A stretch of DNA of 24,409 bases from a virus. The notes under the pieces are model-generated. The model had not been told where the DNA came from. It did not search any database and saw only the letters and a program-made list of their open reading frames with translations. A program made the position numbers and the translations under genes. The stretch is from positions 1 to 24,409 of IMG/VR virus record IMGVR_UViG_3300022701_000340; one strand, written 5' to 3'. Numbering within the stretch: the first letter of the stretch is position 1; every line of letters begins with the position of its first letter. Below are positions 1,707 to 22,614 of the stretch, piece by piece.

Positions 1707-1715
1707 TATAAATAC
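1707..1715 (-). promoter_or_regulatory. Putative late promoter element upstream of the tape measure gene
   Basis: On the minus strand the sequence reads CTTCGTATTTATATTAAA, matching the shared element GTATTTATAWWAAA. The core ends 18 bases before the ATG at 1688. It is one of seven copies in the window, all oriented toward virion-type genes. Confidence 0.6.
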
Positions 1716-1723
1716 GAAGAAAA

Positions 1724-1912
1724 TTATCTTCTTCTTACCCCTGAAACTCTATTGACATGTGTTTGTGATTTTTCTTGTTCTTTTTTCAGTTCATCAGCCT
1801 CTTCTTTCATGAGATTTAAGAAGTATCTACGTTTGAAAACAGGTATTCTTTCAATATAATCGGACGCAAATCTACCGTGTTTTGTTAACAGATAAATTTC
1901 TTCCATTACCAT
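1724..1912 (-). CDS. Small protein, or C-terminal extension of the upstream assembly chaperone by -1 frameshift
   Basis: This frame of 62 codons (start MVMEEIYLLTKHGRF, basic end VSGVRRR) lies between the gp26/gp51-like gene and the tape measure gene. It is predicted to be helical and charged, with a Lys/Glu-rich stretch at residues 36-50. The frame is open upstream of its ATG, without a stop, back to the T9 run at 1943-1951 inside the end of the preceding gene. A -1 slip there would fuse 72 residues (starting PKSLAGDYKK) to residue 325 of that protein. This is the usual layout of tail assembly chaperones G and G-T just before a tape measure gene. No clear ribosome binding site precedes the ATG, so translation only as a fusion is possible. 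Independent translation cannot be excluded. Confidence 0.7.
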   Translation of the reverse strand: MVMEEIYLLTKHGRFASDYIERIPVFKRRYFLNLMKEEADELKKEQEKSQTHVNRVSGVRRR

Positions 1913-1929
1913 TTTTTTGTAATCACCCG

Positions 1930-2916
1930 CTAAAGACTTGGGAAAAAAAAATCAATACCCATTGCTATTGGTGCTCTAAACATATTACCTTCTGGTGATA
2001 TAAATTCGTATGTGAGATCAACTCCGGGTGTGACATCATCCATTTTCTTTCTAACCGCAAGAGCATCACCTGCTGGCATTGCTTCAACAAAACGATTAAT
2101 ATAATCTGGATTTTTGTTACCATCGATTTCAACAATTGCTGCTTTTAATCTTGATGTAGAAGTATCGGCAAACAATGTTTGATATGTTTGTTGTCTTAAT
2201 TCTGCTTGATCAACAATTTGACGAACTTCTTTATCACCCAATAATCTAAATTTTACAATTTTCTTTCTCATTGGAAGTTTAACAACAAATAAACCATTTT
2301 CATCTGGATGTTCTGTAACTTTTTTATATTCTATTTTTGTTAAATCAATTTCTGCTTTAAATGGTTTTCCAGTATTTGGGTTTGTGACTTGAACTTCATA
2401 TTTTGCACCATATGATGATGCACGAAGAAATATAAGAATTGCATTTTTATCACCAGTTAACATATTTTCAATGTCCAATCCTTTTGTTTTAATCTTTCTT
2501 TTAAGAATTTCATCGAGTACTGTACCATTTTCAAGTAATGCTGGTGTTGTAAGAACATCTTCATCTTTTGCAGTAAGATATTCAACAGCAACTTCTTTAA
2601 CTGGATAAAAATAACCTTCCGATGGAAGTTTTATAATATCACTATCAACAATTAAATCTGGATCAGTTTCCTTCATTTGTTGTTGCATAAAATCTTCTGG
2701 ATTAAAATTTTGTTTTGGTGGACTATCTATAGGTTTTGCTTCCTCATTTGGATTTGGTAATGGCACATTTTCTTTATTTTGAATTTGTTGATGATGCGCC
2801 ATTGCTTCATCTTGATTAGTCATAGGGTTCTTCCCTGTTTTAGCATAAAAATCATCAAAACTCTTTTTAAGTGCTACCTTATTAATTTCTTCATCAGATA
2901 ATTGTTGTTTTGCCAT
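1930..2916 (-). CDS. gp26/gp51-like baseplate hub / tail assembly protein (T4 base plate family)
   Basis: The 328-residue protein has a polar, Gln/Asn/Pro-rich N-terminal ~85 residues and then a conserved-looking core: LPSEGYFYP, a segment containing LTAKDEDVLTTPALLENGT, and GDKNAILIFLRASSYGAKYE, each within about residues 98-175. These features resemble the T4 base plate family that includes gp26 and gp51, small baseplate hub or hub-assembly proteins. By position before the tape measure gene it may act as a tail assembly chaperone. The gene ends in codons GAT TTT TTT TTC, a slippery T-run followed three codons later by TAG. A late-promoter-like element lies 38 bases upstream. The family assignment is from memory of the motifs; the chaperone role is inference. 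Confidence 0.75.
   Translation of the reverse strand: MAKQQLSDEEINKVALKKSFDDFYAKTGKNPMTNQDEAMAHHQQIQNKENVPLPNPNEEAKPIDSPPKQNFNPEDFMQQQMKETDPDLIVDSDIIKLPSEGYFYPVKEVAVEYLTAKDEDVLTTPALLENGTVLDEILKRKIKTKGLDIENMLTGDKNAILIFLRASSYGAKYEVQVTNPNTGKPFKAEIDLTKIEYKKVTEHPDENGLFVVKLPMRKKIVKFRLLGDKEVRQIVDQAELRQQTYQTLFADTSTSRLKAAIVEIDGNKNPDYINRFVEAMPAGDALAVRKKMDDVTPGVDLTYEFISPEGNMFRAPIAMGIDFFFPSL
1942..1951 (-). promoter_or_regulatory. Candidate -1 ribosomal frameshift site (T-run, heptamer T TTT TTC)
   Basis: On the minus strand nine T are followed by C. In the zero frame they read GAT TTT TTT TTC, so the last seven bases form T TTT TTC, a canonical X XXY YYZ slippery heptamer. After a -1 slip the frame stays open through CCC AAG TCT TTA and on into the 62-codon frame, giving a predicted 397-residue product. 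Only a weak CCC/GGG pairing is visible downstream, so a stimulatory structure is not evident. A homopolymer length error in the assembly is the main alternative. Confidence 0.6.
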
Positions 2917-2954
2917 AGTTAAAAAATATAAAAAATTATAATTTATTTTGTTTT

Positions 2955-2963
2955 TATAAATAC
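2955..2963 (-). promoter_or_regulatory. Putative late promoter element upstream of the gp26/gp51-like gene
   Basis: The minus strand reads GTACGTATTTATAAAAAC, matching the shared GTATTTATAWWAAA element except at the last base. The core ends 38 bases before the ATG at 2916. Confidence 0.55.
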
Positions 2964-2986
2964 GTACAAAAAAATTTTTCTAAAAA

Positions 2987-3016
2987 TTCAAGATTTTCTT
3001 TTTAAATACGTATAAT
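2987..3016 (+). promoter_or_regulatory. Possible vegetative-type promoter for the phoH operon
   Basis: A TATAAT hexamer at 3011-3016 lies 38 bases before the phoH start. A poor -35-like TTCAAG at 2987-2992 is separated from it by 18 bases. The late-type element is not present in this orientation, which fits an early or middle operon read by a host-type sigma factor. The assignment is weak because the region is very AT-rich. Confidence 0.3.
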
Positions 3017-3054
3017 ACAATAGAAGGAATAATTTTTTAGACTTAATTTTATGT

Positions 3055-3831
3055 ATGGCAAAAAGGAATGGAAGAGTTGAGGAAACTTTAAAGTTGACTG
3101 AAAAGGAAATTTTTGAGCGAGAAAAAGAAAAAGTAAATAGCGTTTTAAATACAGAGTTTAAAGTAATAGCCAAGAACGAGAGTCAAAAGGAACTCATTCG
3201 ATCTATCAAAAAGAATGAAATTACTATTTGCACAGGCAAAGCAGGGACAGGTAAAACATTTGTCTCGCTTGCCTATGCTCTTGGTTTATTAAGAGCAAAA
3301 TCATCTAAATTCAACAAACTATATCTTGTCAAATCAGTAACCACCCTAAAAGGTGAAGAAATTGGATATCTCAAAGGTACATTACAAGAAAAAATAGAAC
3401 CTTTCATGTGGAGTTTTTTAATTAATATGGAAAAACTTCTTGATGATTCAACCATTAAACAACTAATCGACCATGATTTAGTAAGACCATTTCCTTTAGC
3501 ATATGCACGTGGTACAACATTAGATAATGCAATTATTATTGCAGATGAAATGCAAAATGTTGTTTTAGATAATGCACGTACACTTTTAACACGTATAGGT
3601 AAGAATTCCAAAATGATACTGTTGGGTGATTCAAATCAGGTTGATTTGAAAAATAAAACTGAATCGTCATTAGAACCATTACTTGGTATGTTTGATAACA
3701 TAGAAAAAATAGGTTGTGTTCGAATGAATGATAATGATGTAAATGTTAGAAATCCAATAATAACAATTCTTGAAGAAAAATTTCAAGAATACTACGCAAA
3801 TAATTATACAAATGGCAACGGAAAACACTAA
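3055..3831 (+). CDS. phoH: PhoH-like ATPase
   Basis: The 258-residue protein has a Walker A motif GKAGTGKT at residues 61-68 and a Walker B-type ADEMQN at about 163-168. Other PhoH-like features are the YLVKSVTTLKGEEIGYLKG segment after the first strand and LLGDSNQVD near residue 193. PhoH proteins are P-loop NTPases related to the helicase core and are very common in large phages. Their phage role is unsettled, with RNA handling and phosphate stress both proposed. The N-terminal ~40 residues are charged and probably helical. It is the first gene of a plus-strand operon, and its 3' end overlaps the next start by 20 bases. The start at 3055 gives MAKRNGR and follows an A/T-rich leader without a Shine-Dalgarno sequence. 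Assignment to the family is secure; the function is not. Confidence 0.92.
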   Translation: MAKRNGRVEETLKLTEKEIFEREKEKVNSVLNTEFKVIAKNESQKELIRSIKKNEITICTGKAGTGKTFVSLAYALGLLRAKSSKFNKLYLVKSVTTLKGEEIGYLKGTLQEKIEPFMWSFLINMEKLLDDSTIKQLIDHDLVRPFPLAYARGTTLDNAIIIADEMQNVVLDNARTLLTRIGKNSKMILLGDSNQVDLKNKTESSLEPLLGMFDNIEKIGCVRMNDNDVNVRNPIITILEEKFQEYYANNYTNGNGKH

Positions 3832-4081
3832 AATACTCGTCTTTTATATTGATATAAGAATGGTAGAAAATGAAGATATACCTATGTATATGGAAAAAAT
3901 TGGAAAAAGAATTGTCCCTGAAAATTTAGATGCAGAAGGTATAATGATTCCAATTTATGGTGAAACAAAAGTTGAGTGCATCAACCCTGTCTATATTAAA
4001 GATGATGAATTAATAAAAAAACAGGAAAGACTTATGTCTGAATTACATGAACATTTAGAAAATCAGTTAAACAATGAGTAA
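3812..4081 (+). CDS. Hypothetical protein, 89 residues
   Basis: I chose the ATG at 3812 (MATENTKILVFYIDIRM) because the in-frame ATG further upstream at 3770 would overlap phoH by 62 bases and add a low-complexity leader. The chosen start still overlaps the end of phoH by 20 bases. The protein has a beta-strand-like N-terminus (KILVFYIDI), a middle part with IMIPIYGETKVECI, and a helical acidic C-terminus. It is in the same operon as the genes on both sides and overlaps the next start by 8 bases. I do not recognise the family. Confidence 0.75.
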   Translation: MATENTKILVFYIDIRMVENEDIPMYMEKIGKRIVPENLDAEGIMIPIYGETKVECINPVYIKDDELIKKQERLMSELHEHLENQLNNE

Positions 4082-4802
4082 AAAAGTTATAGGAATTGAC
4101 ATTAATGAAGTATTAAGATATCGATGGTTACAATTCGATAGATTTTATGTTGAAGAATTTGGTGACGAAGGAATACCAGAAGTACCATACGTATATGATT
4201 TTTGGAAAGAATATGCTTGGAAAGATCAGGAAGAAGAAATAAAAATGTTAAGAGAAGACCTTCCAGATGATATTTCACCAATAGATTATACGGTGGACGA
4301 AAAAACTGGCGAAGCACCTGTTGACGCATTTGCTTTTTCAGCAGAAAGTAAAACTATTTCAGCACGTGAAGTATATAAAAGATTTATGTATGAGGATTAT
4401 CTTTTTGAAATACATGGTTCTGCACCATTAATGTATAAAGGTTTAGATAAAGACCTTGAAAAGTTTTATAATAAATTCAAACATCAATTTGATTTTAAAA
4501 TCGTCTCAAAAGAAAATTGGTTTACAATTCCACCAACATTATTTTTTCTTTCAAAGTGTATGCCTCGAATTCAAAAATATGCGTTGGTTTCTACAAATGA
4601 AGAAATTTGGAATGAAGTAGATATTTTAATTACAACTGATCCTGAATTATTAGAAAAAATTCCACGTGGAAAGAAAGTTGTAAAGGTTCAAAGACCATAT
4701 AATGAGAAAATGAAAACTAACTCTATAGTTGAAATCTTTCAAATTCTTGATTTATTAGAAAATAAAGATTTTGACAAAGAAATTAAATATAAAGAATTAT
4801 AA
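4074..4802 (+). CDS. HAD-superfamily-like protein, 5'-deoxynucleotidase-type, probably degenerate
   Basis: The 242-residue protein begins MSKKVIGIDINEVL, which matches HAD motif I except that the second Asp of DxD is Asn (D9, N11). Near the C-terminus comes a strand with VDILITTDPELLEKIPRGKK, followed by VVKVQRPYN. This resembles the end of NT5C-like phosphatases, where an Asp-rich motif is followed by a strand and a pyN turn. An acidic insert at about residues 50-120 is unusual. HAD phosphatases need the second Asp as general acid, so loss of activity or altered chemistry is likely. The gene overlaps its upstream neighbour by 8 bases and lies just before a glycosyltransferase pair, so a role in nucleotide or sugar-nucleotide metabolism is possible. 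The superfamily call is moderate; the function is unknown. Confidence 0.55.
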   Translation: MSKKVIGIDINEVLRYRWLQFDRFYVEEFGDEGIPEVPYVYDFWKEYAWKDQEEEIKMLREDLPDDISPIDYTVDEKTGEAPVDAFAFSAESKTISAREVYKRFMYEDYLFEIHGSAPLMYKGLDKDLEKFYNKFKHQFDFKIVSKENWFTIPPTLFFLSKCMPRIQKYALVSTNEEIWNEVDILITTDPELLEKIPRGKKVVKVQRPYNEKMKTNSIVEIFQILDLLENKDFDKEIKYKEL

Positions 4803-4803
4803 A

Positions 4804-5214
4804 ATGAGTTTTAAATTAGAAATTAATGAATTTAGTAGTGGTGATTGGAAACCTTGGGATAGTCTTGGTTTATTAGAAAAATTAGAAGAAAAAGAACGTA
4901 TGGAACTTGGAGTATTAATGAGTGATTTGTTTAAGTATCTTCATGAAAAAGAAATTATGAAAGATGGTGATATATCACCAAAAAAAGATGGATTTAGTAA
5001 TGTGGTGACTTTAGTATTTCCTGCTCTTAGAAGAGTATATGATAAAGTCAAAGACAAAAACATTGATATTGAAAACTTATATAAGAAATTATCAGAATTT
5101 TATAAAATAAATAGAAGTAGTTATCTTGAATTATGTGCTATGAATGTTGATGGAGAAGCAAAATTATGTGCTGATTTTTCAGACATGATGATAGATAAAT
5201 TAAATAACAAATAA
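4804..5214 (+). CDS. Hypothetical protein, 136 residues
   Basis: The ATG at 4804 (MSFKLEINEFSSGDWKPW) follows the previous stop by one base. An in-frame ATG at 4771 would lie inside the previous gene and is less likely. The protein is acidic and mostly helical by composition, with EKLEEKERMELGVLMSDLF and a Tyr/Lys-rich region at about 90-110. No catalytic motif is apparent. Operon position between the HAD-like gene and the glycosyltransferases is the only hint to function. I do not recognise it. Confidence 0.75.
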   Translation: MSFKLEINEFSSGDWKPWDSLGLLEKLEEKERMELGVLMSDLFKYLHEKEIMKDGDISPKKDGFSNVVTLVFPALRRVYDKVKDKNIDIENLYKKLSEFYKINRSSYLELCAMNVDGEAKLCADFSDMMIDKLNNK

Positions 5215-5231
5215 GGAAAATTAATAAAACA

Positions 5232-6395: not shown

Positions 6396-6396
6396 T

Positions 6397-7233
6397 ATGG
6401 ATATTACAGTAATAGTACCAGTACACGAATGGAACGATAAAGTTAAAGAACTTTTTAATAAAGCAATAGAAACAGTTGCGCTTCAAGAAGGTGTTGAAGA
6501 TAGACCAGAGGTTTTGGTTGTATATGCAGCAGCATTGGAAAGTAATGAAGATTTTAAGAAAAACTTAGAACAAGAATATGATAAGTTAAAAGTAACTTTT
6601 GTTAAAAATGAAGGTGAAACAGATTTTCAAAGTCAAGTAAACTTGGGTGCTGAAAATGTAAAAACAAGATTCTTTTCAATTTTGGAATATGATGATGAAT
6701 ATTCAACAACATACTTCAAAATAATGAATTCTTATATAAAAGAACCTGAATTTAAGGGTGTTGATGTTTTCTTACCTATTGTAGTTGAAACCAACGATCA
6801 AGATCAGGCATTAAAATTAACAAATGAAACTGTTTGGTCAAAACAATTTGTTGGTGAAAATGGGACAATGGGTTATTTAAATACACAAGGACTAAATCAA
6901 TATACAGATTTTAAAATTTGTGGTGCATTAATAAAAACAGATGAATTTAAAAATGCTGGTGGTTTAAAAAGAAATATTAAACTCACATTCCAATATGAAT
7001 TCTTATTGCGTTATTTAAACAATGCTTCTAAGGTATACACAGTTCCAAAAATTGGTTATAAACATCTTACAATTAGAGAAGGTAGTTTATTCCATACTTA
7101 TCAAACCACAATGGACATGAATGAAAGAAAGTTCTGGTTTGAAACAGCTAAAAAGGAATCAAACTTTTTCAACGATAGACCGATTGATTTACTTGCGTTA
7201 AACAAAGGGCAAGTAGCTGAAACAAATGTTTAA
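6397..7233 (+). CDS. Glycosyltransferase, GT-A fold (GT2-like)
   Basis: The 278-residue protein begins MDITVIVPVHEWNDKV, the first strand and nucleotide-binding loop of family 2 glycosyltransferases. SILEYDDEYS at about 94-103 sits where the metal-binding DxD motif is expected, with D99, D100 and E101 as candidate ligands. The later FKICGALIKTDEFKNAGG near residue 170-187 resembles the acceptor-side segment of GT2 enzymes, where a residue in a G-G-L context follows. It has no membrane segment, so it should be soluble. The start lies one base after the preceding GT-B gene, which argues for translational coupling. The family call is good; the donor and acceptor cannot be read from the sequence. 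Confidence 0.75.
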   Translation: MDITVIVPVHEWNDKVKELFNKAIETVALQEGVEDRPEVLVVYAAALESNEDFKKNLEQEYDKLKVTFVKNEGETDFQSQVNLGAENVKTRFFSILEYDDEYSTTYFKIMNSYIKEPEFKGVDVFLPIVVETNDQDQALKLTNETVWSKQFVGENGTMGYLNTQGLNQYTDFKICGALIKTDEFKNAGGLKRNIKLTFQYEFLLRYLNNASKVYTVPKIGYKHLTIREGSLFHTYQTTMDMNERKFWFETAKKESNFFNDRPIDLLALNKGQVAETNV

Positions 7234-7270: not shown

Positions 7271-8035
7271 ATGGCAAAAAGAAGACGAAGAAAAGCAAAA
7301 CAATTATATTTTGCAGAACGTGAAGAACAAGCAGTAGTTGACTATATTAATACCGATAGTGTTGATGAACGTCATAGAATTTATGACGAAATATTGAGAG
7401 AACCTTTCAAGAAAATGACGGAATCGATTTTAAGACGTTATCAACATCATATTGGAAATTATAACATACACGAAGTTGAAGCCAATGCTCTGTCTCATTT
7501 GATAGAGCATATGGTTAAATTCAACCCCAATAAAATAACTAAAAGCGGAAAACCAGCCAAAGCATTTAGTTATTGTCAAACCATAGTTCGTAATTTCTAC
7601 AAAGATCACAGCAAAAAAACATATAACGAAGAAAAAACACACCTACCTTGGGAAGATTTTTCAGACGAAATTAATTCAAGAAGAGAATTTTCATATGAAA
7701 TGGAAGATGCTCATAGAAATGAATTAGAGGAACTAATAAGAATAGTGACTGAACGTATGAAAGAAAGAATTGAAGAAGATAAATCTTTGAAAAAGAATGA
7801 AATCATTGTGGGTGAAGCAATTATTAATGTTTTTACAAATTGGCATATTTTGTTTTTAGAAGATTCACCCGATGGTAAATATAACAAAAAGGTTACTAAT
7901 AATTATGCAAAAAACAAAATTTTATTATTCTTAAAAGAACAAACAGGTCTTACAACAAAAGAAATTAGAATGTCAATGAAACCTTATAAAGATATTTATA
8001 AAGTTGAAAAAATGAATTTTTATAATGAAGATTAA
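7271..8035 (+). CDS. gp55-like late transcription sigma factor
   Basis: The 254-residue protein resembles T4 gp55, a minimal sigma factor that directs host RNA polymerase to late promoters. The match is clearest over residues 66-115: a helix with EANALSHLIEHMVKFNP, then KAFSYCQTIVRNFYKDHSKK, which parallels the gp55 segment where a conserved F-x-x-x-K/N-P-h-A/S-Y leads into a basic helix. The N-terminus is very basic (KRRRRKAK). The last residues, EKMNFYNED, are hydrophobic plus acidic like the sliding-clamp-binding C-terminus of gp55; that reading is tentative. At 254 residues it is longer than the 185 of T4 gp55. It overlaps the next start by one base (TAATG). The seven late-promoter-like elements in the window are its likely targets. 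Confidence 0.7.
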   Translation: MAKRRRRKAKQLYFAEREEQAVVDYINTDSVDERHRIYDEILREPFKKMTESILRRYQHHIGNYNIHEVEANALSHLIEHMVKFNPNKITKSGKPAKAFSYCQTIVRNFYKDHSKKTYNEEKTHLPWEDFSDEINSRREFSYEMEDAHRNELEELIRIVTERMKERIEEDKSLKKNEIIVGEAIINVFTNWHILFLEDSPDGKYNKKVTNNYAKNKILLFLKEQTGLTTKEIRMSMKPYKDIYKVEKMNFYNED

Positions 8036-8419: not shown

Positions 8420-8779
8420 ATGCCAAGACCTAAGAGAAAAAAACTTAAATTCGATGAACAAAGCGTAAATGAATTGCTTCAAGAGTGTTATAATGATTCA
8501 CATAACATTAAAGCAAAGATTTCTCGTTTATTCACAAAATGGGAACAACAAGTTAAAGAAGGTGGTGAAATACAAGCATTAGGTGAAACAATTACAAAAT
8601 TAATTGTTGCCGAAGCAAAAGTTTATGATCAAAAATTAATTCTTCTACGTTACTTGAAAGAAGTTGTATTTGCTAAAGAATCAAAGAGCGAAAGTGATGG
8701 AAAGAAACAAGTGGTAAGTAGTGAAGAAAGAAACAAACTAATCAAACAAGTAACCGAAGGGGTACGAAAAGCTAATTAA
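8420..8779 (+). CDS. Hypothetical protein, 119 residues, first gene of a late operon
   Basis: The protein is basic and largely helical, with a Lys/Arg-rich N-terminus (MPRPKRKKLKFDE) and a central helix around AEAKVYDQKLILLRYLKEVVF. Its size and all-helical character could fit a small terminase subunit, but no diagnostic motif is seen, so this is only a possibility. The late-promoter-like element lies just upstream, and the next gene starts two bases after its stop. Confidence 0.75.
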   Translation: MPRPKRKKLKFDEQSVNELLQECYNDSHNIKAKISRLFTKWEQQVKEGGEIQALGETITKLIVAEAKVYDQKLILLRYLKEVVFAKESKSESDGKKQVVSSEERNKLIKQVTEGVRKAN

Positions 8780-13708: not shown

Positions 13709-14197
13709 TTATAGGTTAAGGATGCAACGCCAAGGCTGGATGGTTAAAGTTACCATCTGTAATGCATCAGAATCCATATTATTCTCACCAAAGTTAATTG
13801 ATGTGATCATACATTGTTCCAAAAACCATTTTTCTACTTCAACACCTGTTGGATCAAGTCCTTTAAGAAGAATATTTTTCTTATAACCTGCTGCGTAACC
13901 CATACGTCCTGTTAATGATTCGGCATGTAAACGCACCCATTCCATTAATTGCTGTGATGTAGAAGGACCGATAGTGTCAATGAATGTAATGTCCATTGTT
14001 TCCCAACGGTATTGTCCTGCAACATAGTTTCTTTCATTTATAAATGGAATTTCAACTGAATTTATAGTCATTGAAGGTCTTTTAAATGTTTGTACTTTCC
14101 ACACTTCTATGCCAAGTTCATCAGCAAATTCAGCGAAAAATCTATTCTCTCTTTTTGGTTCGTAATCAAAAGGTATACCACGAATTAATTCTGCCAT
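13709..14197 (-). CDS. Tail tube protein, gp19-like
   Basis: The 162-residue protein matches the phage T4 gp19-type tail tube family in length (163 in T4) and layout: FDYEPKRENRFFAEF at the N-terminus, a middle part with YRWETMDITFIDTIG, MEWVRLHAESLTGRMGYAAG, and a C-terminal strand set ending VTLTIQPWRCIL. The tube protein stacks in hexameric rings inside the sheath. It lies downstream of the sheath gene, with only the acidic 117-residue gene between. The gene has no late-type element directly upstream, so it is probably transcribed from the promoter before the 117-residue gene. It ends 6 bases before the hairpin terminator. Confidence 0.85.
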   Translation of the reverse strand: MAELIRGIPFDYEPKRENRFFAEFADELGIEVWKVQTFKRPSMTINSVEIPFINERNYVAGQYRWETMDITFIDTIGPSTSQQLMEWVRLHAESLTGRMGYAAGYKKNILLKGLDPTGVEVEKWFLEQCMITSINFGENNMDSDALQMVTLTIQPWRCILNL

Positions 14198-14274: not shown

Positions 14275-14628
14275 TTACTTTTTTTTTACAGGAAGTTTAC
14301 CTGTTCTTGCATATTCCCTCTGTTCTCTTTTACTTAATTCAGAAGGTTTTTTATGCTCAATATATTCTTGTGTGTTTTCAGGAAGTACTTTCTCTTCTTC
14401 TGGTTCTGGTAATGGGTCTATTACTGTTTGTTCATCATCAATAGGCGCACCCAATATCATTTCCTCTTCAAATTCATAATTAACTTCCTCTTCTTCTATT
14501 TCTTCAAGTTTTTCTACATAGGCAGCAATTTGTTCTAATTCACTTTTTTTCATGGAATTTAAATCGCCCCAATCTTCTGAATTGTCAGAATTTTTTATAA
14601 TTTTTATTAGTTCTTTCTTTGTTGCCAT
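14275..14628 (-). CDS. Acidic hypothetical protein between sheath and tube genes
   Basis: The 117-residue protein has an N-terminal helical part (MATKKELIKIIKNSDNSEDW) with spacing reminiscent of small SAP or Rho-N-like helical domains. A very acidic Glu/Pro-rich linker occupies about residues 40-90, followed by a basic C-terminus (LSKREQREYARTGKLPVKKK). Charged, probably disordered proteins like this may be assembly factors. Its own late-type element lies 30 bases upstream and the tail tube gene follows on the same strand after 77 bases. No family recognised. Confidence 0.75.
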   Translation of the reverse strand: MATKKELIKIIKNSDNSEDWGDLNSMKKSELEQIAAYVEKLEEIEEEEVNYEFEEEMILGAPIDDEQTVIDPLPEPEEEKVLPENTQEYIEHKKPSELSKREQREYARTGKLPVKKK

Positions 14629-14658
14629 AATAAATCTTTAAAAAGTATTCTTATTTTT

Positions 14659-14667
14659 TATAAATAC
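14659..14667 (-). promoter_or_regulatory. Putative late promoter element for the 117-residue gene and tail tube gene
   Basis: The minus strand reads TGAGTATTTATAAAAAAT, matching GTATTTATAWWAAA. The core ends 30 bases before the ATG at 14628. It lies just downstream of the sheath gene terminator, so the tube unit has its own start point. Confidence 0.65.
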
Positions 14668-14735: not shown

Positions 14736-17474
14736 TTATGCACCTAATTCATCAAATGAAGCACCAGATGGTGTCAATGTGAATGTAAGTCCTATGAATT
14801 CAACAGCACGTGTTGGTTTCAAGTAAATTTCACCATAAAGTTCGTTTCTGTCTTTTGATTCAGGAGTATTATTTGAATCGTCCATAACAATTCTGAAATC
14901 TTGTAATCCTCTTTCTCTACGAATAGTGTCAAGAATTGGATTTGCTTTTTGTAAGAACTGATCAATTGTTGCTTGATCATTTTGTTCAAATAATAATCTT
15001 GTTGCAATGTTAGAAATAAGAACTTCAACTTGAAGTAACAATCTACGAACATTAATTCTGTCAAGAGCACTTTCTTTTTCTTGTAATGTCTTTTGTCCAA
15101 AGATTGCAGTACCAGCATCAGCAAAGTCTGCCATTGGGTTAATTCGACCATTATAAAGAATATCACGCCCTTCAAGTGACATTTTATATTTAGATTTTAT
15201 CGCATCCGTTACACCACGTTGTAAACCAGCAGGAGCAAACCAAGGGAATTTAGCATTATCTGTAAATGCAATTGCTTTAACTACCTCACCAGTTGGTGGT
15301 AAGTATACGTTTACATTATTTTGATTATCTCTCATTTGAATCCAAGGATAATATGTACATGCATATGAAGAATCTATATCTGCTGTATCAAGCAAATCTA
15401 CAATATCTTCTGCAACTACAACATCAAGTCTTTGATCACCAACAGCAATATCAAGATCGATATCAGGAGCATCCATTATATAAAGTGTATCTCCACGTTC
15501 TTGTTCGATCATATCAAGTGTGTTGTTTACAAGAATGTTTTCATCAGACCAGTTGATACCCGGAGTGGCAAACAAGTTAATTGTTATTTCTTCTGGATTT
15601 GCAAATGTATCGACTGCAACTTCCCATGCTTGGAAATCATTTGTTGGGTCTACACCATCAGCAACACCGTCAAAAATTCCACCTTTTCTATATGAGTCAC
15701 CATAACTTCTTTCGTCACGATGCTCGTCCCAACCATCAAAACCACCATAAGGTACTAATGTAAATTTAGTTGAACGACTATCACCATAAGTATCACCATC
15801 TTGAATATCAGCAGATGTTTGGAATTTACCAGCACCCACTTCAAATTCACCTATTAGATATGTACCATCATAATATGTTCCAGTTGCACCACTATCCATA
15901 TGGAAACCTTTAGATTTTGTTCCCCATTCGTTTAAATCAATACCTTTGTAATTAAACATGTTTTGATTGATTCCTGTACCTTGAAGACCAGTACCATCAT
16001 AACCATTTTCTGAAATACCCAAGTAAACTCTATTTACTCTATCAGTTGAACTATAACCAGTTTTGTAGAATATAGCTGGTGCAATACCTGCATTTGCAGA
16101 AGTAGTTGCACTTGTTGCCCAATCTCTAAAGAAATATCCTTCAAAACCAGCAGGGAATGCATCATTAGGTGCATTTTCATCCATTTCCAACATAATATAT
16201 TCACTTTGTAAAGTATATTCACCATCAGAAGTACCAATTCTTTGAGCAACATAATTTGTTTCTCCTTTTTGCATAGTACAACGTGTAAATGATTCAAGAA
16301 CAGTTACGTTGTTATCTGTATCGTTAAAGTCACGAATTAAAATATCAAATTCACCAGAAACTGGATCAATATTTTGAATAGAAATTTTTATTTCTTGATT
16401 TGCAGAATCTCCATCAGAAATAGAGATAAATTTAAATAACAATTCAACTTCCGAACCTCTAAGTTCTGAAACAACCCAAGGAGTTTCAGGAGTTTGGAAT
16501 TGCTCTCTATAATCAGTAAATACTGAACTATCTGCATCTATTATTGTTGTGTTGATACCATAACCTGTACCATCAGCATCTAATTTTTTAATTAAATCAG
16601 GGAATACTGCTTCAACCCATAACTTAGTATTTTTACCTTTTGGTGCATTACCAAGTACGTTTGTTATAAAATCTCTTGAATTTGGATCAAGTGAGATTGA
16701 ATAATCTTCACTGGTTGAATCTACTGAATTAGTTGCTTGAAGCGTAATTGAACCAAACATATCACCAATACCTGTATTGGTTTCGTTTACAGTAACTGCT
16801 AAACCATCTGCATCAAAGTTTGTCACAGGTGCAGCATCATCAACATCTTCAACAGTACCTCTTGGACGAATTACTGCAAGAACCATATCTTCATATTCTG
16901 TAAATGAAGCACCTGTTACGGTGTAAGTTTCTTGGTAAACATCACCACTACCTGCACTATAAGTAGTTGCTGTAAAAGCAATTAATTCGCCAGAAAAGTC
17001 TGAACCTGATTTAGTAAATCCTGTAAAATTAGTACCAGTGTCGCCAGTTGCACTAATTCCAACGCCTAAATATGTCCCACCAGTATAAGATGAAGTACCT
17101 GTTACTGTTGCTGTAATTGCGGTTGTTGATAAGTCAACACCAGCACTAAGAGTTAATGCCCATGCTGTGCCAGCGTCATATCCTGATAATCCGAGAGGTC
17201 TGGTAAACCAAAGTTGATTTGATTCACTAAGATATGCGTTTGCTACATAAGGTGCTTGATATCTAAGATCACCGTTTCCAAGTTTTTCTATGCTTTGCGC
17301 ACCAAAACGAGTTTCAAATTGTCCTGAGTCTTGAATAAATACTGGTTCGAAAGCTGGTCCTTTTAATGTCTCACCTACTAATCCAAGAGTAGTTATCCCT
17401 ACATTTCTTGTTACAAAAGTTAAATCACGTTCTCTGAACTTAACTCCGGGTGATATAAAAACAAATTCTGCCAT
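14736..17474 (-). CDS. Contractile tail sheath protein, gp18-like, with a large insert
   Basis: The 912-residue protein begins MAEFVFISPGVKFRERDLTF, the conserved sheath N-terminus, followed by VGETLKGPAFEPVFI. The C-terminal ~220 residues are the conserved sheath core: GVTDAIKSKYKMSLEGRDI, LYNGRINPMADF, RINVRRLLLQVEVLISNIA, and AVEFIGLTFTLTPSGASF. T4 gp18 has 659 residues; the excess is in a Thr/Ser/Gly/Asp-rich strand-like region at about 110-650, which should project from the tail surface. The gene has its own late-type element 63 bases upstream and its own terminator, so it looks like a single-gene unit for high expression. The sheath call is secure; the role of the insert is unknown. Confidence 0.95.
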   Translation of the reverse strand: MAEFVFISPGVKFRERDLTFVTRNVGITTLGLVGETLKGPAFEPVFIQDSGQFETRFGAQSIEKLGNGDLRYQAPYVANAYLSESNQLWFTRPLGLSGYDAGTAWALTLSAGVDLSTTAITATVTGTSSYTGGTYLGVGISATGDTGTNFTGFTKSGSDFSGELIAFTATTYSAGSGDVYQETYTVTGASFTEYEDMVLAVIRPRGTVEDVDDAAPVTNFDADGLAVTVNETNTGIGDMFGSITLQATNSVDSTSEDYSISLDPNSRDFITNVLGNAPKGKNTKLWVEAVFPDLIKKLDADGTGYGINTTIIDADSSVFTDYREQFQTPETPWVVSELRGSEVELLFKFISISDGDSANQEIKISIQNIDPVSGEFDILIRDFNDTDNNVTVLESFTRCTMQKGETNYVAQRIGTSDGEYTLQSEYIMLEMDENAPNDAFPAGFEGYFFRDWATSATTSANAGIAPAIFYKTGYSSTDRVNRVYLGISENGYDGTGLQGTGINQNMFNYKGIDLNEWGTKSKGFHMDSGATGTYYDGTYLIGEFEVGAGKFQTSADIQDGDTYGDSRSTKFTLVPYGGFDGWDEHRDERSYGDSYRKGGIFDGVADGVDPTNDFQAWEVAVDTFANPEEITINLFATPGINWSDENILVNNTLDMIEQERGDTLYIMDAPDIDLDIAVGDQRLDVVVAEDIVDLLDTADIDSSYACTYYPWIQMRDNQNNVNVYLPPTGEVVKAIAFTDNAKFPWFAPAGLQRGVTDAIKSKYKMSLEGRDILYNGRINPMADFADAGTAIFGQKTLQEKESALDRINVRRLLLQVEVLISNIATRLLFEQNDQATIDQFLQKANPILDTIRRERGLQDFRIVMDDSNNTPESKDRNELYGEIYLKPTRAVEFIGLTFTLTPSGASFDELGA

Positions 17475-17546: not shown

Positions 17547-17582
17547 TTTTTAAAAGTGTAAAATCAATATTTTCAATGAATA

Positions 17583-17591
17583 GTATTTATA
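17583..17591 (+). promoter_or_regulatory. Putative late promoter element for the 743-residue virion protein
   Basis: The plus strand reads AATAGTATTTATAAAAAA, matching GTATTTATAWWAAA. The core ends 24 bases before the ATG at 17616. It lies back to back with the sheath element; the two cores are 36 bases apart and point in opposite directions. Confidence 0.65.
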
Positions 17592-17615
17592 AAAAACTAT
17601 ATAAAAAGATTTTTT

Positions 17616-19847
17616 ATGAATAAATCACAGAGAATACGAGTTGATCTTACAGATGATACGTCAAAGTATATCAAAACACGTTTAGAACAAAATACTAAAA
17701 CGTTGGAAATATTATCTTTGAAAATAGATCAAAAAGATACTTATCAATTTTTTAATGCAGATTATGGCGTATTGGTTGGAAGAGTTCTTGCAAATGAAGG
17801 TGTTGGTATTCCAAATGCTAAAGTTTCAATATTTATTCCAATCAGTGATGACGATAAAGAAAATTCAGATATTTTTGCTCTTTATCCATATGAAAAACCA
17901 TATGATAAGAATGCTGATGGTAAAAGATATAATTTATTACCACGTGTAGCACAAGAAGAACCAGATACTGGTGCTTTTAAACCAAAACAACCCTTTGGTT
18001 CTTTTCCAACAAAAGAAGAAACCATAACAAATGAAACTTTTTTAGAAGTTTATGAAAAATATTATAAATATAGCACTGTAACCAATAATGCTGGTGATTA
18101 TATGCTTTTTGGTGTACCAGTAGGTGTTCAAACAGTTCATATGTCTGTTGATATTACAGATATTGGAGAATTCTCTATGAGTCCAATTGATATGGTTACA
18201 CAACTTGGTTATTCAGAAAATTTATTTACCAGCACTGGTGAAATAAAACCACAAACTGATTTAGATGATTTACCACATATTGAAACACAAGAAATTACTG
18301 TTGATGTTGTACCTTATTGGGGTGATACTGAAAACTTTGATATTGGAATAACCCGACAAGATTTTAGAATACGTGCTCAATTAATTTCAAATTTTGTAAT
18401 ATTTGGTTCATATTTTACTCAGGGTAGATTATCGGTTAATGGTGATCCAGATACAACGGTTAATGGAAATGAAGGTGCAGATGGTAGTTTTTATAAATTA
18501 AGTGACGAATTTTGGAATAATATTGATTTTAGAACAAATCGTGTGGGAGATATGACTATTAAAGTATATAGTTATCTTCCATCTATTAATATGGATATTG
18601 TTGATGAAGATATTTCATCAAGTGGAACAACAATAAACCCACAAACTGATATTTTTTTAGTTGATGAAAACTCATATTTTACATATGTTGACTCTGAAAA
18701 TGGTCAATTTATTGTTAGTGTGGCTTGTAATAGAAATAGAGTGGTAACAGATGAATTTGGTAATAAAACACCTATTCCTGATGATAGAAGTGAGGGTGTG
18801 TTTACAAAATTTTATGGTTTTGCTGTGGTTGAGTTTGAAGATTTAGAAATTGAAAAAACATATGGGAGGGATTGGAGAAAACCAAACTCACCAAATAATG
18901 GTCGTTTAAGGTTTAAAATACCACAAGATAATTTTAGTTTGCGTGATGAAGAAAATAATGCAACATATCAAAACGCTGGTAGTGTTCCTTGGGCAAAAAC
19001 TGTCGCTGAACAAATAAAAGAATCTAATATTTGGAGAAAAAATTATTATTCTTTTGAGGGTGGTAAATTTTATAGTGTAGCACAATTTTTTCCAACAAAA
19101 AATAGTACAAATATAGCATTTACACCAGATACTGCTGGTAGAGTAAATACTTTAGACCCTTCAACATATAATTTAATATATAATATTGGTATGTTTAAAG
19201 TTGGTGGTACTGTAGAAACTACGCAGGAAGATTTAGACAATTTTAACGTAATTTCTGGTGGAACTTCTGGTGCTACACCAGATACCACGTTTTTATATGA
19301 TTTTCCACATAATGCAATTGATACTAATTATAATGATGATAAACTATTTGGTGCACAGTGGTTAAATTTCTCAATGTATTTTCCTCAAATAAACTGGACA
19401 TATGATTACACAACTAACGGAAATCGTGATCAAAACACTGCCGATATATGGTGGAAAGATTATCAACGAGGATTGAATGGTAAAAATGGTGAATGGTTTT
19501 CCGTTGGTGGTAGTAAACTTCAAAATTTAGTTGCAGGTGAAGTAAATACGTCATTTATGGCTTCGGCACATGGTCTTAGAACTGATTTTGTGGAAGTACC
19601 AAAAGACGATGTTGTTTTGTTTTCAGAAATAGAAAGAAAGGGTTTAAGAAAGAATGATGAAAATCTAAGTGGTGTTACTCTTTCTGGAAATTATAAATAT
19701 TTAGCACCAACGGGTAGTACTGCTGCATTTAACTATCAAGAAGTCGCTTATGATGAAAATTATATTAGTAGTGCAAATCCATATTTCTTTAAAGGAATGT
19801 ATAATGCAAACTCAATAAATTTATTATTTGAATTTAATTTTATATAA
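17616..19847 (+). CDS. Large virion-type protein with a carboxypeptidase-regulatory/CnaB-like domain
   Basis: The 743-residue protein has a short N-terminal helix-rich region and then a beta domain of the carboxypeptidase-regulatory (transthyretin/CnaB-like) type. Its first strands are LVGRVLANEGVGIPNAKVSI near residue 52-72 and its last are TVTNNAGDYMLFGVPVGVQTV near 152-172, with a Tyr/Asp/Lys-rich insert of about 70 residues between. The rest is Asn/Asp/Thr-rich, strand-like and without a catalytic motif. Such domains occur as stalk or adhesion modules and are frequent in Bacteroidota and their phages. The late-type element, size and position next to the sheath gene point to a tail or baseplate component, perhaps a host-contact protein. 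It is coupled by TAATG to the next gene. Confidence 0.7.
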   Translation: MNKSQRIRVDLTDDTSKYIKTRLEQNTKTLEILSLKIDQKDTYQFFNADYGVLVGRVLANEGVGIPNAKVSIFIPISDDDKENSDIFALYPYEKPYDKNADGKRYNLLPRVAQEEPDTGAFKPKQPFGSFPTKEETITNETFLEVYEKYYKYSTVTNNAGDYMLFGVPVGVQTVHMSVDITDIGEFSMSPIDMVTQLGYSENLFTSTGEIKPQTDLDDLPHIETQEITVDVVPYWGDTENFDIGITRQDFRIRAQLISNFVIFGSYFTQGRLSVNGDPDTTVNGNEGADGSFYKLSDEFWNNIDFRTNRVGDMTIKVYSYLPSINMDIVDEDISSSGTTINPQTDIFLVDENSYFTYVDSENGQFIVSVACNRNRVVTDEFGNKTPIPDDRSEGVFTKFYGFAVVEFEDLEIEKTYGRDWRKPNSPNNGRLRFKIPQDNFSLRDEENNATYQNAGSVPWAKTVAEQIKESNIWRKNYYSFEGGKFYSVAQFFPTKNSTNIAFTPDTAGRVNTLDPSTYNLIYNIGMFKVGGTVETTQEDLDNFNVISGGTSGATPDTTFLYDFPHNAIDTNYNDDKLFGAQWLNFSMYFPQINWTYDYTTNGNRDQNTADIWWKDYQRGLNGKNGEWFSVGGSKLQNLVAGEVNTSFMASAHGLRTDFVEVPKDDVVLFSEIERKGLRKNDENLSGVTLSGNYKYLAPTGSTAAFNYQEVAYDENYISSANPYFFKGMYNANSINLLFEFNFI

Positions 19848-21007
19848 TGGCTGACGAACAAATTCAATTATCACAATTTAAAAATGTAGATGGAACAAAT
19901 GTTGATGTCTATTCTAAATTTTCTTTAGATTTAAATGAAGAAGAAATTATAGAATATGATGTTAGAAATATTGTTGATGTTACTGAATTATATGAAACAG
20001 AAAGACAATTTGTTAACACCTATAGAGTTTATGGAGAAATTGAATATTTGTCACCATTAAATAAAATGATTACTGGTTATACACAAGTTGAAGATTTTTT
20101 CACCATATTTCCAATATCTGCTATAACTAAAACAATTTTAACCGATTTTAAATTTTATTTGGTTGCACCATCCACAGCATACACAGGTTTGATTACTGGT
20201 TCAACTGGTGGTACATATTTAAAAAACTATGAAGTGTTATCAGAACTTGATAATTTTGAAATATATAAAGCAGGATATTCAAAAAATGTTTATGGTGAAC
20301 AACAATATGGTTGGGATTTTAATCAAGATTTTAATATTCAAGATAGATATGATGGATTGAATTTTCCACTTACTAATTTATATTTATATGCTCAATATCA
20401 ACCACAATCAAATGGTGATGGTGATCCAGAATCTATGAGTGGTATAACATATGATTCAAGTGGTAATACTGGTCTGACTGCAATTACTGTTACAACATTA
20501 AGCGGTGGAAGTATTGTTGAGGGTGATGTAATTAATTGGGATAAATTACAATTTACCCAACAAAATATAACCGAACAAGAATATTATATATCAACACCAT
20601 ATTCAGCAGATACTGAAAGATTAATTTGGAAATATTCTCCATTAATACCAATTGAAATAAGAGTTTTTGAAGATGATCTTCAACAAGTAAATATTTCAGG
20701 AACATCTTATGAAGATATTACATCAGTACCTGATTATGCCACACAAATAGATGATGATGGTAATTATGTATGGAGAAATCTTCAAGATAAAGGGTTCTTT
20801 GATCCATTAACAGGTGATGGTGTATCATACCCATTTGTTAACCAGAAACATTATGTATTTAATAATATAATATTGGCTGTTAAACCTGATTTAAGTGATT
20901 CAAATACTGCAAGTGTATTTAATGAAATTGTATTTTCAGATGATACGTTTATTAGTAATCAACCTAATAGTAATTTAAATAACATAGGTAAACCATGCAA
21001 CTTATAA
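19847..21007 (+). CDS. Putative virion structural protein, 386 residues
   Basis: The protein is rich in Tyr, Asn, Thr, Gly and Asp and looks mainly beta. It has Thr/Gly-rich runs (TGLITGSTGGTYL, SGNTGLTAITVTTLSGGSI) near residues 110-225 and a conserved-looking C-terminal part with LIWKYSPLIPIEIRVFEDDL and DGNYVWRNLQDKGFFDPLTG. The start shares one base with the upstream stop and the end overlaps the downstream gene by 13 bases, so the three large genes form one late unit. The same stretches of low-complexity, Thr/Ser/Gly-rich sequence occur in the sheath insert. A tail fibre or baseplate role is likely but not proven. Confidence 0.7.
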   Translation: MADEQIQLSQFKNVDGTNVDVYSKFSLDLNEEEIIEYDVRNIVDVTELYETERQFVNTYRVYGEIEYLSPLNKMITGYTQVEDFFTIFPISAITKTILTDFKFYLVAPSTAYTGLITGSTGGTYLKNYEVLSELDNFEIYKAGYSKNVYGEQQYGWDFNQDFNIQDRYDGLNFPLTNLYLYAQYQPQSNGDGDPESMSGITYDSSGNTGLTAITVTTLSGGSIVEGDVINWDKLQFTQQNITEQEYYISTPYSADTERLIWKYSPLIPIEIRVFEDDLQQVNISGTSYEDITSVPDYATQIDDDGNYVWRNLQDKGFFDPLTGDGVSYPFVNQKHYVFNNIILAVKPDLSDSNTASVFNEIVFSDDTFISNQPNSNLNNIGKPCNL

Positions 21008-21783
21008 AAGAAAAAATATTATTTAAGTCACGACAAACACAAAACATTAAGTTTTTCTTAACTGCTGATAATTCTTTTGGTGGTTTACAAGAAAATATTA
21101 ACGATTTTGTTGAAGAAGAAACTGGTTTATCTATAAATAATTCAGAAGATGCTGAAACATATAGATATTCTCCAATTGGAAATATTTCTTTAAATGCAAG
21201 TTTTTATAGTGGTGGAACTTATGATGATACTTATGTTCAAGCTGGTTTTACTACAGGAGAAACATCAACAAGAAACGAAGTTGTTTTAAGAAGTTTTTTT
21301 CTTTTACAAGTTTATGATTCTACATCACCAGAAAATCAGACATTACTACATAGTGGATATTTTAATGGTTTTGATTTTCTTCCATTAAATACTGGAAACA
21401 CAACATATTCATATAATAATGATGAAGAATTTGCAGATTTATATTTACCAAATTTCTATATAGATACATTAACAGCAACAACTACAATGTATGGTAAATT
21501 AAGTTTTTATAATGCAAAAACAGGAAAATTAGATTTGTTTAGCATTTATAGTGCATCAACTTCAAATCCACCATTACCTGAAACAGATGGTGATTTATAT
21601 TTCGAAATAAGTTTATCGGCAGATACTTTTGCTTACGATGTTGACACAATATATGCATATGAAATTGCAAATGATGATTATGTGGATAAGATTAATAATA
21701 CGTTAACTTCATTTACAAATCAAAAACCAACATATCCTACTGGAAATACGTTTCTTAATACTGGTAGATATATTGAAAATTAA
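20995..21783 (+). CDS. Putative virion structural protein, 262 residues
   Basis: The product begins MQLIKEKILFKSRQTQNIKF and is rich in Ser, Thr, Tyr, Asn and Phe, with a beta-type pattern throughout and no catalytic motif. It overlaps the upstream gene by 13 bases. Its TAA at 21781-21783 overlaps the TAA of the convergent minus-strand gene, so no terminator lies between them. Composition and unit membership suggest a tail appendage or baseplate part; the family is not recognised. Confidence 0.7.
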   Translation: MQLIKEKILFKSRQTQNIKFFLTADNSFGGLQENINDFVEEETGLSINNSEDAETYRYSPIGNISLNASFYSGGTYDDTYVQAGFTTGETSTRNEVVLRSFFLLQVYDSTSPENQTLLHSGYFNGFDFLPLNTGNTTYSYNNDEEFADLYLPNFYIDTLTATTTMYGKLSFYNAKTGKLDLFSIYSASTSNPPLPETDGDLYFEISLSADTFAYDVDTIYAYEIANDDYVDKINNTLTSFTNQKPTYPTGNTFLNTGRYIEN

Positions 21784-22592
21784 GATTCTTTTACTTCACG
21801 ATCATCCCTACCTCTTCTTGGTGGAGAAGCAAGATCGTATGCAATACGTGGTCTTCTCGATGTTTTTACTATTTCAAATTCATCTTCATTTTGACGGAAA
21901 CCCAACACTTTTATGTTGTAAATACCAACATAAAATCGATCACCATCAATATTTTCAATTGAATTTGCTTCATCAGTTGATTCTAAATGAACTGGCATTG
22001 GAGCACCTTTAACCCATATATAATGTTGTCTTGAAGCAAAATTTTGAAAAAAAAGTTCATCATATTGATTAAAATCAATACGATATTTTGTAAATAGTCT
22101 TACTTCATAAAGTAAATCAACATTAACTGGTTCAGGTATTTTATAACGAAGTGTAATTACTTGACCTTCATCTAAAATAGGTACGTCTAAATAACGAAAA
22201 TTTCTTGGTTGTGGAATACGATATTTTGTGCCGAGACGAGTGCCGGGTGCTTTACCCGTTCTTCTCACAGTTATATATGGCGTTGGAACGTTTTTATCTT
22301 GATCAACAAATTTCCATGTTTTAGAGAATTCACCCCAACGTTCATTTTCTAAATAAAACGCTGGAACTGTTTCACCATCAAGAATTAATTCAAATTTACC
22401 GTTTTTAAAATCATCAAATATTTCTCTATCAATATCTTTAAAAGAAATTGTCTTTGGTAAATAATTAGTGTTTTGATCTGTTTTGATCATCAATTCTTCA
22501 ACACGATCCATACCATATTCAAGATAGTCAGTACCAACATTTACAGTATCAACTATCTCCATATCAAATTTTTTCTTTTTTGGTAACGCCAT
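21780..22592 (-). CDS. Putative tail completion / sheath stabiliser protein, gp15-like
   Basis: The 270-residue protein is close in length to T4 gp15 (272), which caps the tail and joins it to the head. The visible similarity is in the central part: a Pro followed by VNVDLLYEVRLFTKYRIDFN and then a helix YDELFFQNFASRQHYI, compared with the gp15 segment where a P-I precedes a YELSIFTRY strand and a helix ending in QPHFNT. The N-terminus starts MALPKKKKFDMEIVD and the C-terminus is basic and Arg-rich (PPRRGRDDREVKES). A late-type element lies 13 bases upstream. The similarity is from memory and limited to one segment, so the name is provisional. Confidence 0.5.
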   Translation of the reverse strand: MALPKKKKFDMEIVDTVNVGTDYLEYGMDRVEELMIKTDQNTNYLPKTISFKDIDREIFDDFKNGKFELILDGETVPAFYLENERWGEFSKTWKFVDQDKNVPTPYITVRRTGKAPGTRLGTKYRIPQPRNFRYLDVPILDEGQVITLRYKIPEPVNVDLLYEVRLFTKYRIDFNQYDELFFQNFASRQHYIWVKGAPMPVHLESTDEANSIENIDGDRFYVGIYNIKVLGFRQNEDEFEIVKTSRRPRIAYDLASPPRRGRDDREVKES

Positions 22593-22605
22593 TGTTTGCT
22601 TTTTA

Positions 22606-22614
22606 TATAAATAC
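22606..22614 (-). promoter_or_regulatory. Putative late promoter element for the gp15-like gene
   Basis: The minus strand reads ATAGTATTTATATAAAAA, matching GTATTTATAWWAAA. The core ends 13 bases before the ATG at 22592, the shortest spacing of the seven. The divergent gene at 22647 has no such element in its own direction. Confidence 0.65.

Follow-up and report, generated by a model that had tools for sequence, protein, structure and literature searches.

Late genes of bacteriophage T4 are transcribed from promoters carrying the box TATAAATA, which is recognized by gp55 together with gp33 and the gp45 clamp; boxes of this type comprise 8 bases and lie roughly one helical turn ahead of the start (PMC2988020, PMC2984593). 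Similar consensus boxes were described in KVP40, 44RR, and S-PM2 (NATAAATA in S-PM2), and a variant with a/gC at −13/−12, its first two positions, in Aeh1; none of the boxes given in the excerpts of these papers available to us is TATTTATA (PMC2988020, PMC2984593). Microcystis phage Ma-LMM01, which has no gp55, was reported, in the available excerpt of the study, to be without phage-specific motifs (PMC5780444). Here, we analyzed a repeated element, GTATTTATA, in the viral record IMGVR_UViG_3300022701_000340 of IMG/VR, taken over its whole length of 24,409 bases (the window). Judging from its sequence context, this element is very likely a late promoter, namely a T4-type variant with an altered core, TATTTATA. 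By its gene content, the window is a fragment of a larger phage, in which the tail sheath, the tail tube, a baseplate hub, PhoH, a MazG-like protein, and an exonuclease were recognized, together with a weakly matching gp5-like hub.

An earlier note on this DNA had listed seven copies of GTATTTATA, all of which are present with the positions and orientations given there (Table 1). As also claimed, six of them match the consensus GTATTTATAWWAAA exactly, and the copy at 2963-2950 has a final C. Dinucleotide shuffles gave an expectation of 0.01 for exact copies in the window, where 6 were found, and of 0.69 for copies with at most one mismatch, where 7 were found. With a matrix built from relatives and the window, the seven sites scored 14.6-17.2 bits, and the next-best site, located within a gene, 10.8 bits. 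The distances to the ATG given in that note agreed with ours, their exact values depending on the point from which they are counted. The statement that only virion-type genes lie downstream needs some qualification. A PHROG virion hit was obtained for only two of the seven first genes (baseplate hub, 1930-2916, and tail sheath, 14736-17474). The other five first genes had no hit; the tail tube comes second in the 14628 unit, and the gp5-like hub lies within the 8420 unit. The statement is also too narrow, since homing endonucleases, endolysins, and genes of the NAD-synthetase family follow the element in relatives. A terminator-like hairpin followed by a T-run was noticed, by reading the sequence, directly upstream of the element at 14654..14667.

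Table 1. Coordinates of the candidate promoter elements and of the probable sigma factor gene in the window.
Feature	Position	Strand	Context	Remarks
Candidate late-promoter element GTATTTATATTAAA	1702..1715	−	before gene starting 1688	exact, 16.6 bits; orthologs 3/3
Candidate late-promoter element GTATTTATAAAAAC	2950..2963	−	before baseplate-hub gene 1930-2916	one mismatch, 14.6 bits
Candidate second promoter class, CGTATAAT type	3005..3024	+	31 bases before phoH	12.8 bits; de novo motif
Probable phage sigma factor, gp55-like region 2 and extra C-terminal domain	7271..8035	+		254 residues; likely reader
Candidate late-promoter element GTATTTATAATAAA	8396..8409	+	before 8420-8779, first gene of gp5-like hub unit	exact, 16.8 bits
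Candidate late-promoter element GTATTTATAAAAAA	14654..14667	−	before 14275-14628 and tail tube 13709-14197	exact, 16.7 bits
Candidate late-promoter element GTATTTATAAAAAA	17533..17546	−	before tail sheath	exact, 17.1 bits
Candidate late-promoter element GTATTTATAAAAAA	17583..17596	+	before 17616-19847, divergent to sheath promoter	exact, 16.8 bits
Candidate late-promoter element GTATTTATATAAAA	22601..22614	−	before 21780-22592	exact, 17.2 bits
Candidate third promoter class TATCTTTG	22619..22638	+	9 bases before KTSC gene at 22647	10.7 bits; fits TAnnTTTG

Relatives were collected from IMG/VR through the sheath protein (at least 80 loci) and through PhoH (at least 80 loci), on contigs of up to 364,702 bases. 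The whole records of five relatives, part of a sixth, and the window formed a sequence pool of 1.25 Mb with 1,586 genes, and motifs were searched by expectation maximization seeded with over-represented 8-mers. In the unbiased searches of this pool, aGTATTTATAnnAAA was the top upstream motif, present in about one third of the usable upstream regions, and GTATTTAT was the 8-mer most enriched upstream of genes (275 sense and 55 antisense upstream copies, 464 in total). Expectation maximization ranked the element motif first in three records analyzed singly (G003, G001, and G004), in the pool of the remaining records, and in all 787 upstream regions taken jointly, 37% of which contained it. At more than 9 bits, the element was found in 258 of 819 upstream regions; letter shuffling left 7, and the reverse strand, with divergent gaps counted, gave 37. 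Likewise, GTATTTATAWWAA occurred in 224 copies in 16 records, of which 15 had copies, versus 15 copies of the backward-read pattern.

The scan of strand and start-codon distance proposed in the earlier note, run over the relatives and the window, revealed an upstream enrichment in one orientation. Where both genes flanking a gap run the same way, 227 of the 464 GTATTTAT copies pointed toward the next gene and 7 away from it; the remaining copies were located in divergent gaps (100, uninformative), in convergent gaps (7), or within genes (71 sense and 52 antisense). The equal frequency in both orientations or inside genes that would speak against a promoter was thus not observed. Among gaps of at least 35 bases, the element was present on either strand in 75 of 103 divergent and 5 of 56 convergent gaps, and in same-direction gaps in 181 of 505 in sense and 5 of 505 in antisense. 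These counts settle the working direction of the element. Since GTATTTATA and TATAAATAC are reverse complements, it could be imagined that a T4-type TATAAATA box is read here in the opposite way, firing away from the genes named above; according to the open reading frame list, four of the seven window sites (2963, 17546, the 17591 side, and 22614) would still face a co-directional gene. However, only one direction can serve the next gene in same-direction gaps, where the ratio of 227 to 7 excludes the opposite orientation as a general reading, and the T4 box itself was found in sense (8 versus 4). We give this reversed reading practically no credence. The remark that the core is the reverse complement of the T4 box is nevertheless correct, TATTTATA being the reverse complement of TATAAATA, and the working direction is the one proposed at the outset. 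Of the same-direction gaps, 51 of 148 with the element had a predicted terminator-like hairpin with a T-run (≤ −6 kcal/mol) ahead of it, versus 72 of 299 without the element, a weak difference between two sets of unequal gap lengths.

Conservation was then tallied gene by gene among orthologs in loci L007-L110, the element being called at more than 9 bits unless the exact core is stated, and leaving out hits identical to the window, hits short of the first 40 residues, hits with no nearby ATG, and repeated upstream sequences. The element was found upstream of 64/65 tail tube orthologs, 58/60 sheath orthologs, 49/50 orthologs of 17616, 26/26 of 21780, and 3/3 of both 14275 and 1688. For 8420, 32/41 orthologs had the element and 35/41 the exact GTATTTAT. 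The weakest ortholog support was that of the baseplate-hub site at 2950..2963, with the exact GTATTTAT in 1/3 and more than 9 bits in 0/3. No element was found upstream of orthologs of the sigma (0/39), two glycosyltransferase-like (0/40 and 0/42), exonuclease (0/58), MazG (0/14), and KTSC (0/26) genes, or of those of 8782 (0/43), 10289 (0/45), 20995 (0/27), 3836 (0/27), 4074 (0/30), 1724 (0/12), 4801 (0/3), and 11796 (0/1), and it was nearly absent from orthologs of phoH (1/22) and of the gp5-like gene (1/51). No usable ortholog of 13037 was available in the tally. The element had been said to be missing from phoH, sigma, KTSC, and MazG; this holds throughout the window, and in the relatives with the single phoH ortholog as an exception.

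The 19847 gene of the window has no core, and its orthologs (e.g., in L015, L028, L046, and L072) had the exact GTATTTAT in 23/25 cases and more than 9 bits in only 1/25. In those four of six inspected examples that have the core, it starts 13 bases before the ATG, and, from the sequence, the late mRNA could be leaderless or nearly leaderless there. In the window, 14275-14628, a gene with few relatives, separates the candidate late promoter from the tail tube gene; the element lies at most 100 bases from the tube start in 64/65 tube orthologs.

Measured from the last base of GTATTTAT, start-codon distances peaked at 14-18 bases, with a tail to 98 (100 bases examined), and the G of the element was most commonly located 22-30 bases before the ATG (166 of 302 sites). 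Among 288 exact-core sites, position 9, following GTATTTAT, was A in 66%, positions 10-11 were mostly A or T, and positions 12-14 were A in 75, 92, and 87% (75, 94, and 91% in the de novo matrix). The TATAWWAA register considered earlier had to be given up, positions 9-11 being variable; since the conserved positions are GTATTTAT and the A at 12-14, the core to be compared with TATAAATA is TATTTATA. Upstream of it, a stretch located about 13-16 bases before the G had a G+C content of 12, 9, 3, and 12%, versus about 30% immediately upstream and 10-23% between the stretch and the core, the minimum of 3% marking its centre, 14 bases before the G. No conserved −35 element, that is, no hexamer at fixed spacing, was found within 40 bases upstream of the core. 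Conservation reached 96-100% for two or more of the three A in orthologs of the sheath, tube, 17616, and 21780 genes, with variable bases farther downstream.

Such a sharp distance peak could also be expected from a translation signal in the mRNA, for instance an enhancer near the start codon, and Bacteroidetes are naturally devoid of Shine-Dalgarno sequences, as stated in the available part of PMC6847099. However, A was kept at positions 13/14 whatever the distance to the ATG (94/92% when the G lies 22-30 bases away, 91/86% at 31-50, and 82/71% at 51-200) and was reduced in in-gene copies (42/26%). This constant spacing between the core and the AAA block fits a promoter better than a translation signal. 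Moreover, the inner unit genes 8782, 10289, and 20995 lack the element in all orthologs tallied, though 19847 orthologs mostly have the core, and we consider a role in translation extremely unlikely.

A comparison with known phages supported the reading as a promoter of the T4 type. When 8-mers were counted, TATAAATA ranked first in the T4 late region (45 kb), second after ATAAATAA in cyanophage P-RSM4 (50 kb), and sixth in Campylobacter phage NCTC12673 (100 kb), behind ribosome-binding-site-like words. Its upstream sense and antisense copies numbered 8 and 4 in T4, 4 and 0 in P-RSM4, and 11 and 4 in the Campylobacter phage. The corresponding numbers for TATTTATA were 9 and 0 in Microcystis phage Mel-JY01, 20 and 7 in Flavobacterium phage immuto, and 224 and 53 in the window family. 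The T4 box was not found as such in this family, its TATAAATA counts (53 sense, 224 antisense) being the mirror of those of TATTTATA. Neither core was found in the 50 kb examined of each of PTm1, RM378, and PhiW-14. Expectation maximization yielded a ribosome-binding-site-like motif, and not the late box, in T4 and the Campylobacter phage. Genes follow 22 intergenic core sites on the plus strand of immuto, seven of these genes being annotated as terminase, gp20 portal, sheath, tube, tail spike, or tail fiber genes and most of the others as hypothetical, and in Mel-JY01 the same core precedes the tail tube gene. The top expectation-maximization motif of immuto differs from the core and is probably early. 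A motif other than the core, TATTTA(G/A)nTA, mostly after TTCnTA, precedes 17 immuto genes, of which 14 are hypothetical and one is an endolysin by annotation. A long promoter-like sequence, TTCnTATATTTAGGTATCAATAATTAAAA, is also present in immuto (NC_055915, ~60956-76216) in many nearly invariant copies preceding a run of mostly small genes; it is probably an early promoter.

With the first motif masked, two others emerged de novo from the pool, ttCGTATAat and TtTGTAACA, the latter becoming TaTaTTTGtaa when rerun from chosen seeds. The PHROG families downstream of each motif were then compared, the figures being those among the 25 most frequent families listed per set. Motif 1, the element studied here (110 of 230 usable genes), preceded homing endonucleases (8), the terminase large subunit (4), NAD synthetase (4), the tail tube (3), two baseplate wedge families (2 and 2), the baseplate hub (2), and endolysin (2). 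Motif 2 (83 genes) preceded PhoH (4), RIIB (3), a Dda-like helicase (3), endonuclease V (2), nicotinamide phosphoribosyl transferase (1), RIIA (1), and a homing endonuclease (1); a count of 4 for "terminase" under this motif is explained by PhoH, which matches the same family. Motif 3 (79 genes) preceded two unnamed families also matched by the KTSC gene of the window (5), SbcC-like proteins (4), metallo-phosphoesterases (3), HNH endonucleases (3), ribonucleotide reductase (2), and RIIA (1). The gene families thus differ between the three motifs, and virion and packaging families stand out after motif 1. Homing endonucleases were the commonest family after the candidate late promoter (8/110 proteins), and endonucleases occurred after all three motifs.

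In the window, the motif 2 site preceding phoH scored second to an in-gene site (13.0 bits), and this motif was found in 12/22 phoH orthologs. The motif 3 site at 22619..22638 was the only listed site of its class at most 100 bases before a co-directional gene, two other sites scoring higher, and the motif was found in 11/26 KTSC orthologs. Motif 3 fits the flavobacterial sigmaA box TAnnTTTG, which is located at −12 to −5 according to the excerpt of PMC9723704, and the GTATTTATA element does not. The fit of motif 3 to this box, together with the core shared with immuto, designates Bacteroidota as the probable host group. It might then be asked if the element is itself a host promoter, serving the main or an alternative sigma factor of the host: it is A+T-rich, lies at promoter positions, and flavobacteria do have alternative sigma motifs, as can be seen from the same excerpt (PMC9723704). 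Against this, TAnnTTTG is missing from the element but fits another motif of these genomes. Moreover, the core is present in a phage of the cyanobacterium Microcystis and was not found in the 50 kb examined of Tenacibaculum phage PTm1. Among the phage genomes compared, the core thus follows the phage lineage rather than the host, and a host promoter appears very unlikely.

The likely reader of the element is the probable sigma factor encoded at 7271-8035. It is conserved in the family: tblastn located it in five of six fetched records and, for the sixth, in one locus. It also matched the cultured phages immuto (E 1e-4) and Mel-JY01 (4e-5) and the uncultured LR756508 (1e-7); the match to gp55 of Campylobacter phages (E ~1) was not significant. 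In the window and in immuto, the two loci looked at, the sigma gene lies directly upstream of a core-bearing unit. A family profile compared with eight T4-type gp55 proteins gave an E of 2.9e-5 and a probability of 73.6% over the region-2 core. When the window protein was searched alone, Pfam, PHROG, and PDB gave no significant sequence match. Among 22 family members, Sigma70_r2 was the second Pfam match (7/22, best 0.0029), after a ZW10 helical domain (13/22, best 5.4e-5), and "RNA polymerase sigma factor" was the commonest PHROG match (5 members, best 0.0017). In the predicted structure (mean predicted local distance difference test, pLDDT, 79.9; predicted template modelling score, pTM, 0.44), residues ~9-117 aligned with sigma region 2, and nearly all of the best 50 rows of the structure aligner were sigma factors, e.g., 7khi_F (Z 8.4, 2.5 Å over 96 residues) and 5h6x_B (Z 8.9, 3.5 Å over 95), Z values that helical models may reach by chance. 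Foldseek gave no match at E ≤ 0.001 for this model or for that of the C-terminal domain. The aligner, Sigma70_r2, and the gp55 profile are three weak lines that agree, making the presence of a sigma region 2 domain probable.

The C-terminal 115 residues form, in the model, a helical domain missing from T4 gp55 (pLDDT 83.3, pTM 0.74). This domain aligned to E. coli sigma70 residues ~528-611, which we take to be region 4 (Z 5.0, 3.4 Å, 81 residues), with scores equalled by unrelated helical proteins, and no sigma region-4 family was found in it by sequence searches; the modelled resemblance to region 4 is no more than a hint. Judged by eye, most sigma proteins of the family end in a hydrophobic and acidic tail (e.g., MNFYNED, IDYLDD) like the T4 clamp-binding LDFLYEAND, unlike the sigmas of immuto, Mel-JY01, L106, and L107. 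One group of relatives (L049, L044, L073, L067, L093, and L014) has an insertion ~40 residues long before the FSYCQT helix of the sigma.

The late promoter could also be read by a factor other than the 7271-8035 sigma, either a paralog or a sigma-like protein of small size. Gp55-like proteins of only 105-114 residues, possibly further sigma factors on the basis of their sequence, were matched in G002 (L234:1471-1815), G001 (L236:1447-1788), and G005 (L235:1321-1638). In eight loci (L019, L027, L034, L090, L049, L051, L058, and L109, with L034 and L090 on one contig), a second sigma-like copy, 25-33% identical over ~100-125 residues, directly follows the main sigma gene. However, the gp55 family model gave only weak matches in 3/13 records and also matched 7/14 control genomes, while the large sigma is present in nearly all fetched records and has relatives in both cultured TATTTATA phages. 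We regard another reader as rather unlikely. PHROG 12791 had no match in the 13 records.

Altogether, the diverged T4-type late promoter proposed in the earlier note is the best reading of these data, with a corrected register and an unchanged direction. We consider it probable that the element serves these phages as the −10-type core of a late promoter, with the 7271-8035 sigma as its reader. The genes downstream are called late from their gene families, and we infer timing, start sites, and the identity of the reader from sequence and by analogy. Several observations weigh against this reading. The genes of the pool were predicted with a simple purpose-written caller, and the regions in which sites were counted had also served to train the weight matrices; 37 of them exceeded the cut-off on the reverse strand. 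No copy of GTATTTATAWWAA was found in the distant relative G016 (210 kb; sigma ~31% identical), nor was either core found in the 142 kb examined of LR756508, despite its sheath and sigma similarity. The 8420 orthologs with a core mostly have T, A, and C at positions 12-14 instead of AAA. As for the sigma, a smaller set of three gp55 proteins gave an E of 0.00093 and a probability of 22.5%, some relatives carry additional sigma-like genes, and no T4-type sliding clamp was found by PF09116 and PF02916 in 12 records (0/12), where a diverged clamp may be present. The proposed tie between this sigma and the element is drawn from their co-occurrence and by analogy.

Across this large phage family, the unit aGTATTTATannAAA with its low-G+C stretch precedes virion, packaging, and lysis genes. 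By analogy with T4, where the box spans about −13 to −6, TATTTATA would occupy the −10 position, with the G at −14 and the AAA block covering roughly −3 to −1. Transcription would begin immediately downstream of this block, leaving leaders of ~10 bases. Early-type genes, including the phoH-to-sigma operon, would first be read from sigmaA-type (TAnnTTTG) and second-class (ttCGTATAat) promoters, and the sigma encoded by this operon, which has a gp55-like region 2, would then bind the host RNA polymerase core and direct it to GTATTTATAnnAAA. A review of T4 late transcription asks, in its section 9, why a fused late sigma is unseen in nature (PMC2988020). The protein described here might be such a natural fusion, combining a gp55-like region 2 with a region-4 or gp33-like C-terminal domain and maybe a clamp-binding tail, and reading a co-evolved TATTTATA in phages of Bacteroidota and cyanobacteria, a proposal that we put forward as doubtful. 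Among the open-licence PubMed Central matches listed, no report was found of the element, of a TATTTATA phage late promoter, or of a fused gp55-gp33.

These results provide a map of three promoter classes (late, early-type, and sigmaA-type, as read here) for a large group of uncultured phages with records of up to 365 kb, in which late genes without known relatives can be recognized by their promoter. They also suggest that a T4-type late promoter with an altered core occurs in phages carrying an unusual sigma. As the core is common to the cultured Flavobacterium phage immuto, both the core change and the existence of a fused late sigma are open to bench testing.

The flavobacterial sigmaA promoter probably involves the same host polymerase core, and its box TAnnTTTG is matched by a separate phage motif but not by the GTATTTATA element. 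Other T4-type phages, such as S-PM2 and Aeh1, already provide examples of lineage-specific box variants; those described in the excerpts cited above alter the first bases, and none of them turns the central AA into TT. With respect to T4 itself, the core TATTTATA of the window family differs from TATAAATA at the fourth and fifth bases, and the family has a fixed G before the core (A or C in immuto), a conserved A at positions 12-14, and a low-G+C stretch upstream. Its sigma is larger, with a C-terminal domain missing from T4 gp55, and a clamp was not found by family models in 12 records. The element shares with the T4 late promoter a single 8-base A+T box with no conserved −35 hexamer, its use on both strands at a short distance from presumed late genes, an A+T-rich segment after the box, and a phage sigma with a predicted gp55-like region 2.

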